Shown: positions 6,260 through 36,758 of the stretch, piece by piece
Layout of the letters: every line of letters starts with the position of its first letter
How positions within the stretch are numbered: the stretch's first letter is position 1
Program-made: the position numbers and the translations under genes
Assembly: GCA_021741355.1 (NCBI GenBank)
Contig: JAIOXZ010000002.1
Location: forward strand, 62,001-126,000
Reading direction: 5' to 3'
Source: Caulobacter sp.
GTDB lineage: Bacteria > Pseudomonadota > Alphaproteobacteria > Caulobacterales > Caulobacteraceae
DNA: 64,000 nt
The notes under the pieces: generated by a model
Database searches by the model: none
What the model was told of the DNA's origin: nothing
What the model saw: the letters and a program-made list of their open reading frames with translations, nothing else

Positions 6260-8535
<2,276 letters not shown>

Positions 8536-32153: not shown

Positions 32154-32227
32154 GAAGGCGGGCGGCCTTGAACCCCTGCCCCCTCCGTCGCATAACACCG
32201 GTCTCATCGATCCGGGGGGACACTCAC

Positions 32228-33175
32228 ATGCTTAGCCGCGCGCCCGTGGCGCCCGTTCGGGACTGGTATTGCGACTCCGCCCACTGGGACCAGTTCACCC
32301 CTCGCGACGGCGACGTGATCATCGCCACCGCCCCCAAGGTCGGCACCACCTGGACGCAGCAGATCGTCAACCTGCTGGTGTTCCAGAACCCCGAGCCGCG
32401 CCAGCTGGGCGCGCTGTCGCCGTGGCTCGACTGCCGCCTCCAGATGCCCTTGCCAGTGGCGTTGCAGGTGCTGGAAGCCCAGCCACACCGACGGTTCGTC
32501 AAGTCGCACCTGCCGATGAGCGCCCTGCCGATCTGGGACCAGGTGAACTACATCCATGTGGCGCGGGACGGGCGGGACGCCTGCATGTCCTATCTCAACC
32601 ACATCAACGGCTACACGCCCTTCACCTGGAGCAGGCTGGACGCGGTCGGCGAGAGCGACCCGCTGCTGCCGGGCGCCAAGCCCCGGCCACCGCGGACGAC
32701 GCGGGAGTTCTTCCACCACTGGATCGAGCCGGGCGGCACGCGAAAGGCCGAGCTGATGGCCGACGCCTTCTTCGAGATCGAGCGCTCGTTCTGGGCCTAG
32801 CGCGCCCGGCCCAATGTGCTACTGCTGCACTACAACGACATGAAGGCCGATCTGGATGGCGAGATGCGCCGCATCGCCGCCTTCCTGGGCATTCCGGTCG
32901 ACGAGGCGATCTGGCCCGACCTGGTCGCCGCCGCTGATTTCAGCGCCATGCAGCGGGACGGCGGGACCCTGATGGCCGGGGTCGATGTGGCCTTCGAGGG
33001 CGGCCACACGACCTTCCTCAACAAGGGGACCAACGGCCGCTGGCAGACCGAGCTGACCGCCGAGGACCTGGCCCGCTACCGGCAGCGCGTCGAGACCGAA
33101 TTGTCCCCGACGCTGGCCCACTGGCTGGAGCACGGCCGCCTTGTGGCCGGCGATCCGCGCGCCACGGCGGACTGA
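32228..33175 (+). pseudogene. sulfotransferase interrupted by an in-frame amber codon
   Basis: A full-length 315-codon sulfotransferase frame is broken by TAG at 32798-32800, after 190 residues. The cofactor (PAPS) phosphate loop TAPKVGTTWTQQIV (34-47) and the 3'-phosphate site HVARDGRDACMSYLNH are upstream of the stop. The remaining 124 codons (from RARPNVLLLHYNDMK) continue in the same frame and align with the intact paralogue immediately downstream. There the equivalent codon is GAA (ERAFWAERTRSN), so the stop probably came from a GAG-to-TAG transversion. A 190-residue fragment might be made; readthrough or sequencing error cannot be excluded. Confidence 0.85.
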
Positions 33176-33185
33176 CGACAACGCC

Positions 33186-34133
33186 ATGCTCAGCCGCCCA
33201 CCCATCGCACCCGTCAGGGGCTACTACTGCGACAGCAGCCGCTGGGCCCCCTACGTCCCGCGCGACGGCGACATCGTCATCGCCACAGCGCCCAAGGTCG
33301 GCACCACCTGGATGCAGCAGATCGTCAGCCTGCTGGTGTTCCAGTCCACCGAGGCCAAACCGCTGCACTTCATCTCGCCCTGGCTGGACTGCCGGCTGCG
33401 GGACAACCTGGGCGAACAGCTGGCGCTGCTGGAGATGCAGACCCACCGGCGGTACATCAAGTCACACCTGCCGTTCAGCGCCCTGCCGGTCTGGGACGAG
33501 GTGAAGTACATCCATGTGGCGCGGGACGGCCGCGACGCCTGCCTGTCCTACCTGAACCACAACAACGCCTACACCGCGGGCGCCTGGGCCCGGCTGGACG
33601 CGGCGGCCGAGGCGGACCTCGACCTGCCCGCGCCCGCGCCGCGCCCGCCGCGCGACGCACGGGGCTTTTTCCATCACTGGATCGCGCCCGGCGGCACGGC
33701 GGCGGCGGAGCAGATGGGCGACGGCTTCTTCGAGATCGAGCGGGCCTTCTGGGCGGAACGGACCCGTTCAAACCTGCTGCTGGTCCACTACGCCGACCTG
33801 AAGACCGACCTCGACGGCGAGATGCGGCGGATCAGCGCCTTCCTGGACATCCCCGTGGACGAGACGATCTGGCCGTCACTCGTCGAGGCCGCGGACTTCG
33901 AGTCGATGAAGGCGGCCGGCGCAGACCTCATGCCCGGGGCGGAGATGTCCTTCGAGGGCGGCCACAACACCTTCCTCAACAAGGGGACCAACGGCCGCTG
34001 GCAGACCGAGCTGACCGCCGGGGACCTGGCGCTGTATCAGCAGCGTGTGGCGACGGAGCTGTCCCCGTCGCTCGCCCGCTGGCTGGAGCACGGCCGCCTC
34101 GCCACCGGCGACCCGGTGACAGCCGCCGACTGA
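33186..34133 (+). CDS. sulfotransferase (intact tandem paralogue)
   Basis: 315 residues, exactly the length of the broken copy that ends 10 nt upstream. The 5'-phosphosulfate loop ATAPKVGTTWMQQIV is at 33-47 and the 3'-phosphate motif HVARDGRDACLSYLNH follows. The C-terminus keeps the GGHNTFLNKGTNGRWQTEL segment shared with the other copy. Cytosolic-type sulfotransferase fold using PAPS; acceptor unknown. Its ATG lies just after the stop of the first copy, so both were probably co-transcribed after a tandem duplication. Confidence 0.92.
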   Translation: MLSRPPIAPVRGYYCDSSRWAPYVPRDGDIVIATAPKVGTTWMQQIVSLLVFQSTEAKPLHFISPWLDCRLRDNLGEQLALLEMQTHRRYIKSHLPFSALPVWDEVKYIHVARDGRDACLSYLNHNNAYTAGAWARLDAAAEADLDLPAPAPRPPRDARGFFHHWIAPGGTAAAEQMGDGFFEIERAFWAERTRSNLLLVHYADLKTDLDGEMRRISAFLDIPVDETIWPSLVEAADFESMKAAGADLMPGAEMSFEGGHNTFLNKGTNGRWQTELTAGDLALYQQRVATELSPSLARWLEHGRLATGDPVTAAD

Positions 34134-35121: not shown

Positions 35122-36033
35122 ATGGCCGGAAGCCAGGACTTCGCCGCCGACCCGCGCAACGCCACCGCGCGCATCTGGCTGAACGGCGAGATGGTCACGC
35201 GCAAGAACGCCAGGGTCTCGGTGTTCGACGCTGGCTTCGTCGTCGGCGACGGCGTCTGGGAGGGGCTGCGCCTGCACAAGGGCCGGCTGATGTTCCTCGA
35301 CGCGCATCTGGACCGGCTGTTCCAGGGCGCCGACGCGATCGGCCTCGACATCGGCATGAGCCGCCAGCAGGTGACCGAGGCGCTGAACGACCTGCTGGCC
35401 TTCAACCGGATGGAGGACGGCGTCCATCTGCGCCTGATGGTCACGCGCGGCGAGAAGACCGGCGCCAACCAGGACCCGCGCAACGCGTTGGGCAAGCCGA
35501 CCGTGGTGATCCTCGCCGAATGGAAGGTCCCCAGCCCGGCGATCGTCACGCGCGGCCTCTCGCTGGCCACCGTCGGCATCCGCTGCACCCCGGCGCACAT
35601 GTTCGACATGCGGCTCAACAGCCATAGCCGCCTGAACCTGATCATCGCCCTGCAGGAGGCCATCCGCGCCGGCGCGGACGAGGCGCTGATGCTCGATCCG
35701 GACGGCTACGTGTCCAGCTGCAACGCGACCAACCTGTTCTGGGTCAGGGATGGCGAGGTCCGCACCTCGACGGGCGAGTTCTGCTTCAACGGCGTGACCC
35801 GGGCCAATGTGATCAAGCTGTGCGAGGCCAACGGCATCCCGCTGCGGCTGGGAAACTTCCCGGTGGAAGACATCCGCGAGGCCGACGAGGCCTTCGTCAC
35901 CGGCACCTTCGGCGGGCTGACCCCGGTGCGGGAGATTGACGGCAAGCCGCTGCCCCAGGCGCTGCCCGGCTATCGCACCACCATCCTGCGCGAGCTCTAC
36001 GACGGGCTGAAGGACGCGGAGGCCGCGCGGTGA
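35122..36033 (+). CDS. class-IV aminotransferase fold protein lacking the PLP lysine
   Basis: 303 residues with the overall class-IV pattern: WLNGEMVTRKNARVSVFDAGFVVGDGVWEGLR near the start, GADEALMLDPDGYV around 184-197, and FVTGTFGGLTPVREIDG near the end. However, there is no lysine at all between K135 and K232. The expected Schiff-base lysine, around residue 167, falls in DMRLNSHSRLN. The glutamate that normally contacts the PLP ring nitrogen (GYxSEG) is replaced (GYVSSCNATNLF). A standard PLP transaminase reaction is therefore unlikely. The start of the sulfotransferase-like gene overlaps its stop by 4 nt, so the two products probably act together. Confidence 0.85.
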   Translation: MAGSQDFAADPRNATARIWLNGEMVTRKNARVSVFDAGFVVGDGVWEGLRLHKGRLMFLDAHLDRLFQGADAIGLDIGMSRQQVTEALNDLLAFNRMEDGVHLRLMVTRGEKTGANQDPRNALGKPTVVILAEWKVPSPAIVTRGLSLATVGIRCTPAHMFDMRLNSHSRLNLIIALQEAIRAGADEALMLDPDGYVSSCNATNLFWVRDGEVRTSTGEFCFNGVTRANVIKLCEANGIPLRLGNFPVEDIREADEAFVTGTFGGLTPVREIDGKPLPQALPGYRTTILRELYDGLKDAEAAR

Positions 36034-36758
36034 CCGTCCGCATCGCCATGTGGTCTGGCCCGCGCAATATCTCCACGGCGATGATGCGGGCGTTCGAGAA
36101 CCGGCCCGACACGGCCGTCAGCGACGAGCCCTTCTACGCCGCCTATCTCGCCGGGACCGGGCTGGACCACCCGATGCGGGAGGAGGTTCTCGCCAGCCAG
36201 CCGACCGACTGGCGCCTGGTCGCCGACGCCATGGCCGGCCCGGCGCCCGGCGACGCGCCGGTCTGGTACCAGAAGCACATGACCCATCACATGCTGCCCG
36301 GCTTCGGCATGGACTGGGCGGGCGCCTGCCGCAGCGCGTTCCTGATCCGCGCGCCGGAGGCGGTGCTGGCCAGCTACACGGTCAAGCGCGAGCAGGTGAC
36401 GCTGGACGACATCGGCTTTGTCCAGCAGCGCGAACTGTTCGAACGGGAGGCCGACCGCCTCGGCGCCGCGCCGCCGGTGATCGAGGGCCGTGATGTGCTG
36501 GCCGATCCGCGCGGGACCCTGGGCAAGCTGTGCGCGGCGCTGGGCATCGCCTTCGACGACGCCATGCTGGCCTGGCCGGCGGGCCGGCGGGACAGCGACG
36601 GCGTCTGGGCGCCGGCCTGGTACGACGCCGTCGAGGCCTCCACCGGCTTCGGCCCACCCCGGTCCGAGGCCGGCCGCGACGACCTGAACGACGACCTGCG
36701 CCGGATCGCCGACGCCGCCCGCCCGCACTACGAGCGGCTGGCGGCCTTCAAACTGTAA
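36030..36758 (+). CDS. sulfotransferase-like P-loop protein coupled to the preceding gene
   Basis: 242 residues. The N-terminus IAMWSGPRNISTAMMRAF occupies the position of a sulfotransferase phosphosulfate-binding loop, and FLIRAPEAVLASYTVKREQVT resembles the 3'-phosphate site. Other conserved-looking blocks are SDEPFYAAYLAGTG and WYQKHMTHHMLP. It starts inside the last codons of the lysine-less class-IV protein (GTGA overlap). From memory, animal proteins named branched-chain-aminotransferase-like combine these two domains in one chain; this was not checked. Substrate unknown. Confidence 0.8.
   Translation: MTVRIAMWSGPRNISTAMMRAFENRPDTAVSDEPFYAAYLAGTGLDHPMREEVLASQPTDWRLVADAMAGPAPGDAPVWYQKHMTHHMLPGFGMDWAGACRSAFLIRAPEAVLASYTVKREQVTLDDIGFVQQRELFEREADRLGAAPPVIEGRDVLADPRGTLGKLCAALGIAFDDAMLAWPAGRRDSDGVWAPAWYDAVEASTGFGPPRSEAGRDDLNDDLRRIADAARPHYERLAAFKL

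Follow-up and report, generated by a model that had tools for sequence, protein, structure and literature searches.

The 64,000-nucleotide stretch of a Caulobacter sp. genome analysed here (GenBank assembly GCA_021741355.1, contig JAIOXZ010000002.1, positions 62,001 to 126,000; hereafter the window) carries two overlapping genes whose products are almost certainly coupled in function. The first encodes a protein with the fold of class-IV aminotransferases in which asparagine stands in place of the lysine that is the textbook hallmark of enzymes dependent on pyridoxal 5'-phosphate (PLP), and the second encodes a sulfotransferase of the family PF19798. Because the lysine-less form is strongly conserved and is mostly found with this one particular sulfotransferase, the two proteins very probably handle one shared amino-acid-like molecule.

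An aminotransferase fold with asparagine at the lysine position

The first gene product matches PF01063 with 157 bits (cut-off 28.5), in keeping with the class-IV layout that had been recognized from the sequence in the original prediction, and all its scores against the 19 NCBIfam models that it matches lie under the cut-off of the respective model. Its lysines are at positions 28, 53, 112, 125, 135, 232, 275 and 297, which confirms that there is none between K135 and K232. When the protein is aligned by HMMER to solved lysine enzymes, N166 aligns with the Schiff-base lysine and S199 with the glutamate in contact with the PLP ring, so that both residues are missing as proposed. The more sweeping statement that both PLP signatures are gone is correct for this protein but needs qualification, since the phosphate cup is kept and a sister type described below retains the glutamate.

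In an alignment of 116 homologue rows (L013 and L098 are one gene, counted twice), position 166 is asparagine in 115, and the sole exception, L122, has lysine together with the glutamate. Position 199 in the 115 asparagine rows is serine (55) or threonine (60). The homologue collection draws on the best 80 of at least 575 confirmed stretches and is skewed towards the window's own kind. Leaving aside L122 and the fragment L040, 114 rows of this asparagine type (N-type) remain, and in these D10, R12, N13, R50, H62, R65, H102, R104, Q117, N166, H168, S169, N201, G224 and T226 never vary. The phosphate cup, whose residues we take to be R65, G224, T226 and T262 from other fold-type-IV enzymes, is thus intact, with the first three present in all 114 rows and T262 in 111. 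Residue 102 is histidine in every N-type row and tyrosine in all seven lysine-containing rows considered. The residue four positions after 166 is arginine in all 55 Ser199 rows, which include the window protein, and lysine in 59 of the 60 Thr199 rows; this lysine is confined to the Thr199 group, and no lysine elsewhere in the site is common to the N types. At position 222, all 115 N rows have a hydrophobic residue (F, L, M or I).

The sister type (H-type, loci L237–L240) has histidine at the lysine position and retains the glutamate in all four proteins, and each is encoded immediately downstream of a sulfotransferase gene. Histidine is also found at position 102 in all four, while position 168 is occupied by another residue. 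A tree of 30 N-type rows (a chosen subset), the four H-type rows and seven lysine-containing (K-type) rows recovers the N and H types as one group each and places them together against the K type with a support of 100/100. A single loss of the lysine followed by a change of the replacing residue and two separate losses are both possible.

The ratio of nonsynonymous to synonymous substitution rates (dN/dS) is 0.055 with the closest relative and 0.28, 0.34 and 0.21 with three others. Decay of the gene, to which the loss of two catalytic residues might point, is ruled out by these values, the conservation of N166 throughout and the intact reading frame, and we give it practically no credence. A repurposed fold, as originally suggested, is supported.

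Association with a sulfotransferase and with transporters

The second gene overlaps the first by 4 nt (36030–36033), as had been seen at the outset, and its product matches PF19798 (Sulfotransfer_5) with 244 bits (cut-off 23.2). R12, S15, T16, R107 and S115 are kept in 75 of 75 sulfotransferase rows; these residues belong to motifs that presumably bind the 5'-phosphosulfate and the 3'-phosphate of 3'-phosphoadenosine 5'-phosphosulfate (PAPS). An adenosine 5'-phosphosulfate (APS) kinase is encoded in the window's genome, which indicates only that PAPS can be made. Our literature search gave no assigned function for PF19798; the family is named once each in the accessible portions of PMC12506393 and PMC11625862, and those of PMC9309667 do not mention sulfotransferases.

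The genomic association of the two families is strong in each of two phyla. In an even sample of 299 genomes from the window's phylum, which we take to be Pseudomonadota, the aminotransferase model gave 26 matches at E 1e-60 or better, of which one (G096, carrying L122) is the lysine enzyme, leaving 25 N-type genomes. PF19798 is found at E 1e-10 or better in 22 genomes, apparently of the same sample, and all 22 fall among the 25. The N-type genomes without it are G285 and G260, whose loci (L107 and L108) are operons for ATP-binding cassette (ABC) transporters, and G318. A second survey covered 296 genomes from the phylum of a marine actinobacterium bin (G359, locus L050), with 32 genomes matching the aminotransferase model and 35 matching PF19798. 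The latter divide into 17 with at least 137 bits and 18 whose best score is at most 82 bits. All 17 strong genomes have a lysine-less partner (13 N-type, four H-type); the 18 with weak matches are all missing from the aminotransferase list. The other 15 genomes of that list are all outside the 35, and the six of them that were read (2.7–3.5 kb each) have both lysine and glutamate. The co-occurrence figures in both phyla count species rather than independent events. They support a real coupling, as suspected from one locus.

Six of the 22 genomes of the window's phylum (G122, G222, G244, G247, G264 and G276) have the two genes apart, and since both are nevertheless kept, the link exceeds mere neighbourhood. 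The sulfotransferase gene faces an msrA-type gene in all six (two by Pfam, the rest by similarity), which we take as synteny, and the aminotransferase-like gene has no neighbour common to the six. These sulfotransferase loci with the msrA-type neighbour, of the peptide methionine sulfoxide reductase type, are L162–L167, and their six genomes belong to one family (f16). The idea that the two domains might also be fused was not borne out, with no fusion flagged in the 115 loci tested. At3g05190 and At5g27410, which we take to be plant fusion proteins, yielded no paper under those names and were given no weight.

A third general partner was sought, and none of the neighbour clusters that were identified, which are some of the total, is general. 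They include opposite-strand shadows, an acyl-CoA dehydrogenase, a short-chain dehydrogenase/reductase and a dienelactone hydrolase. An enoyl-CoA hydratase-type protein occurs at variable positions in eight loci, five of them with the sulfotransferase. Five loci that are close to one another (L029, at 6615–7859 on the minus strand, and L021, L022, L023 and L033), four of which have the sulfotransferase, carry an M24/creatinase-type peptidase gene near the aminotransferase-like gene and on the other strand.

Constant pairing, which the original prediction had raised as something to check, does not hold: the coupling is strong but not universal, and in a large group an amino-acid ABC transporter takes the sulfotransferase's place. 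From 95 loci, after ten with short flanks were dropped, 34 loci lacking the sulfotransferase were set against 31 sulfotransferase loci flanked by more than 3.5 kb on either side. Another 20 loci with the sulfotransferase had less flanking sequence and were excluded, and the downstream flank demanded of the 34 was laxer (1.5 kb). Queries were drawn from eight of the 34 (L035, L124, L127, L130, L131, L170, L171 and L172), each of which counts itself. On this basis, loci without the sulfotransferase have a permease (26 of 34 versus 0 of 31), a solute-binding protein (27 versus 0), an ATPase (27, some of them distant as in L125 and L170, versus 3) and a GntR regulator (21 versus 0). Less frequent in the 34, and each in 0 of the 31, are ClC (7), MmgE/PrpD (6), ProC (5), sulfatase (3), ornithine cyclodeaminase (OCD)-type (2), enolase-type (2) and dihydrodipicolinate synthase (2) proteins. 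Loci without the sulfotransferase are thus mostly amino-acid ABC-transporter operons. In 17 of 22 genomes in which the locus comes without the sulfotransferase, PF19798 gives no match, and in the other five it matches at a different place; the completeness of these genomes is not given. The aminotransferase-like protein would accordingly seem useful without the sulfotransferase.

A tree of 132 aminotransferase-like rows built by a quick method places 34 in a main transporter-linked group (29 with ABC transporters, four with other contexts and one with the sulfotransferase), and four other transporter-linked rows in a distant Rhodobacterales group. One locus, L052, has a protein from the transporter clade and yet adjoins a sulfotransferase. 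Ten solute-binding proteins are 43–75% identical inside each set, and between sets show at most 30% identity or no BLAST match. Together, the separate groups and the divergent binding proteins imply two or more recruitments of amino-acid-type transporters, a point in favour of an amino-acid-like substrate.

The solved structures closest to these solute-binding proteins are those of general binders of amino acids or of ancestors of cyclohexadienyl dehydratase, and they give no decisive indication of the transported substrate. Among the enzymes nearby, MmgE/PrpD partners match IRG1-type decarboxylases and iminodisuccinate epimerase, the enolase-type partner has one match only, an uncharacterised protein, and OCD-type proteins score best against the pyrroline-2-carboxylate reductase model, under its cut-off; the two ProC-type proteins read are both above the proC cut-off. 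In Mameliella, a choline-sulfatase gene lies directly downstream of the aminotransferase-like gene. At L130 (8968–11432), the aminotransferase-like gene overlaps by 4 nt a gene above the choline-sulfatase cut-off, and this pair sits behind an amino-acid ABC transporter.

Setting of the pair and spread of the family

The positions of the two genes and of the sites discussed are collected below.

Features of the gene pair in the window (positions counted from the first nucleotide of the window)
Feature	Position	Strand	Remark
Aminotransferase-like gene, lysine-less, N-type	35122..36033	+	303 aa, PF01063 fold
Sulfotransferase gene	36030..36758	+	242 aa, PF19798 Sulfotransfer_5
His102 codon	35425..35427	+	Candidate acid/base; putative role
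Asn166 codon	35617..35619	+	Position equivalent to PLP Schiff-base lysine
His168 codon	35623..35625	+	Candidate base; putative role
Ser199 codon	35716..35718	+	Position equivalent to glutamate contacting PLP pyridine nitrogen
SGPRNIST (S9-T16) of sulfotransferase	36054..36077	+	Motif taken to be of the 5'-phosphosulfate-binding type
RAPEAVLAS (R107-S115) of sulfotransferase	36348..36374	+	Motif taken to be of the 3'-phosphate-binding type

In the window, the neighbours of the pair are YggT, DUF167 and an HlyIII-related gene. Counting the window's own genome, just five of the 25 from its genus carry the module gene (E 1e-30). The YggT-DUF167 pair that precedes the module occurs in all 12 other same-genus genomes examined, and in none of these 12 is the module found within 1.5 kb behind it. 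One genome (G011) has the module at the same site as the window, and another (G019) has it at a different site. Within the explanation that we prefer, the window pair is a transferable two-enzyme module. Homologue record titles name Alpha-, Beta- and Gammaproteobacteria, Actinobacteria, Balneola, Neomarinimicrobiota, Verrucomicrobia and Flavobacteriales; many are metagenome bins, whose taxonomy is taken as deposited. The nearest named relatives among the matches listed are Caulobacter and Phenylobacterium records. Of 20 plasmid matches, 18 are labelled aminotransferase, one lies in an unannotated record and at the last no gene is marked; this database name is probably wrong.

Other sulfotransferase genes were seen along the way. 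Two tandem PF00685 copies lie at 32225–34133 (+) of the window, the first of which is split across two frames (to 32800, then 32816–33175) and resembles a broken duplicate of the intact second copy (33186–34133). A weaker group of PF19798 paralogues scores 54–82 bits (for example L234, L235 and L236), and several of its members are in reading frames of 626–727 aa. On a Dolichospermum plasmid (L129, 8989–9774), a distant PF19798-like sulfotransferase with 32% identity lies near an APS kinase gene (cysC) and a 2-oxoglutarate-Fe(II) oxygenase gene, and the stretch shown has no annotated aminotransferase.

Possible chemistry of the lysine-less protein

The subfamily has already reached the Protein Data Bank (PDB). 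Entry 7z79 (2022), titled 'Crystal structure of aminotransferase-like protein from Variovorax paradoxus', is of the same N-type subfamily as the window protein (E 9e-98), with asparagine at the lysine position, serine at the glutamate position and the shared motifs NSHSRLN and SSCN; entry 9j32 (2025) is its N174K mutant, so the absent lysine has been noticed by others. Two transporter-linked loci, L044 and L060, have exactly the 7z79 motif DAGYVCGDGVWEGVRL, which probably places 7z79, a protein outside our tree, in the transporter clade. The window copy is instead paired with a sulfotransferase, and its locus lacks the amino-acid ABC transporter operon typical of that presumed clade. A literature search found no paper on 7z79 or 9j32 or on their function, and for the gene pair it returned only the halotolerance lead discussed below.

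Compared with branched-chain aminotransferases and other fold-type-IV PF01063 enzymes (5mqz, 5e25), the window protein shares the Pfam fold match and the phosphate cup residues but is missing the catalytic lysine and the pyridine glutamate, and it is very likely not an ordinary transaminase. A parallel exists in ColD and E1, lysine-less 3-dehydratases dependent on pyridoxamine 5'-phosphate (PMP), which are fold type I sugar enzymes that use histidine with a non-covalent cofactor. The resemblance lies in an aminotransferase fold without lysine, and the H-type sister has the same change of lysine to histidine; the window protein differs in being of fold type IV and in having asparagine at this site. 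The sulfotransferase resembles PAPS sulfotransferases such as the curacin CurM domain (4gbm), an olefin-synthase domain (4gox) and TPST1 (5wrj) in its family match and P-loop fold and in its 5' and 3' motif residues. It differs from them in being a stand-alone protein with 11–20% identity in structural alignments and in being tied to a lysine-less aminotransferase fold. The sulfotransferases of curacin and olefin synthesis sulfate ahead of an elimination.

The explanation that we favour, with less than even confidence, is that a PAPS sulfotransferase and a lysine-independent enzyme with a PLP pocket act on one amino-acid-like metabolite. The sulfotransferase would act on a hydroxyl of this small molecule. 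Its partner, no longer forming an internal aldimine, would use the intact phosphate cup to bind a phosphorylated ligand (most probably PLP or PMP) without a covalent bond, and histidine would serve as acid/base (His102 in both lysine-less types, plus His168, or His166 in the sister type). The retained cup, together with the glutamate of the H-type, suggests a ligand of the PLP or PMP type, which we consider somewhat probable. The most likely reaction would be a lyase step that eliminates the sulfate ester installed by the partner and yields an enamine or imine, and in transporter-linked copies the leaving group might already be present on the imported solute. Elimination is a tentative proposal; it draws on the Ser/Thr at position 199, as fold-type-II beta-eliminases use at the pyridine nitrogen, on the ColD/E1 precedent, on sulfate as a leaving group and on the anion channel, sulfatase and imine reductase neighbours in transporter operons. 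The data fit a lyase that needs no lysine and whose substrate is an amino-acid-like solute activated by sulfation or in some other way, each chemical step being our inference. Taken to its full extent, this would define a fold-type-IV class without the PLP lysine whose dedicated sulfotransferase converts a hydroxyl into a sulfate leaving group that is then eliminated, with a second, catabolic life in transporter operons, and in that complete form it is doubtful.

Several observations weigh against this explanation. N types have changes at the lysine, the glutamate and the +4 position alike, so that the ligand may be something other than PLP. The four H-type proteins have Thr, Leu, Pro and Pro at residue 222, where contact with the ring would be expected; this makes a ring at the same place less likely in them, and they also lack His168. 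In Foldseek, TPST1 and the elimination-type sulfotransferases come out equally close, with adenylate kinases next in the list, so the fold gives elimination no preference. Distances of the two proteins correlate only moderately (r 0.44 over 71 rows). Finally, ClC, sulfatase, ProC and MmgE are each found in a minority of loci, in counts that include the query loci, and two of the three sulfatase loci were themselves query sources.

The same observations can be accommodated by other schemes. The aminotransferase-like protein might make or handle a hydroxylated zwitterion that the sulfotransferase caps, without elimination, to give an osmolyte-like sulfate ester (compare choline-O-sulfate) that transporter-linked organisms import and consume. 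The choline-sulfatase of Mameliella and the sulfatases in three of the 34 sulfotransferase-free loci are in line with this, as is a six-strain halotolerance comparison in which, in the portions available, clusters 1089 'Aminotransferase class IV' and 1090 'Sulfotransferase' (both 0.81) are among 113 clusters co-occurring with salt tolerance (PMC10040529). However, with six strains and 113 clusters, and with the identity of those two clusters with the present genes unconfirmed, this lead should be read cautiously, and the neighbour clusters identified so far reveal no further solute-biosynthesis gene shared among sulfotransferase loci; we regard this sulfate-ester pathway, too, as doubtful. The fold might also work without a cofactor, its phosphate cup binding the sulfate or phosphate of the substrate itself while His, Asn and Ser do hydrolase, lyase or binding work. 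An invariant cup beside a changed lysine, glutamate and +4 position, partner families that transfer or remove sulfate, and the lack of the usual hydrophobic residue 222 in three of four H-type proteins would suit such a use, which nevertheless seems unlikely given that the H-type keeps the pyridine glutamate and that all N rows keep a hydrophobic residue 222, both as expected for a bound PLP-like ring.

If the protein were instead a dead aminotransferase that presents the substrate to the sulfotransferase or regulates it (or, in the other context, the ABC transporter), the loss of both catalytic residues and the strict pairing would be explained. The invariant polar pocket residues H102, H168, S169 and N201 point rather to catalysis or tight ligand binding, and most genomes with a sulfotransferase-free locus have no PF19798 protein to be served, making such a role quite unlikely. 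Residual transamination with free PLP or PMP is consistent with the fully kept fold, with the slow half-reactions that lysine mutants of aminotransferases can retain and with the existence of the N174K mutant, the motive for which was presumably this very test. We find it very improbable, because conservation of the asparagine across records of several phyla would be odd for a crippled transaminase, and replacement of the glutamate by Ser or Thr disfavours transamination.

The lysine-less relative and its mutant in the PDB were known before; the co-occurrence with a sulfotransferase in two phyla, the H-type sister and a transporter-operon context recruited at least twice are new here. A widespread family with asparagine, or in its sister histidine, at the lysine position that is tied to one sulfotransferase family offers a handle both on lysine-free chemistry in a PLP pocket and on PF19798. 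Given the existing structure of a relative, ligand screening is possible at once, and we suggest sulfated or otherwise activated polar amino-acid-like solutes as the class to begin with. If sulfation followed by elimination proves to be true, it would constitute such a route outside polyketide synthases.
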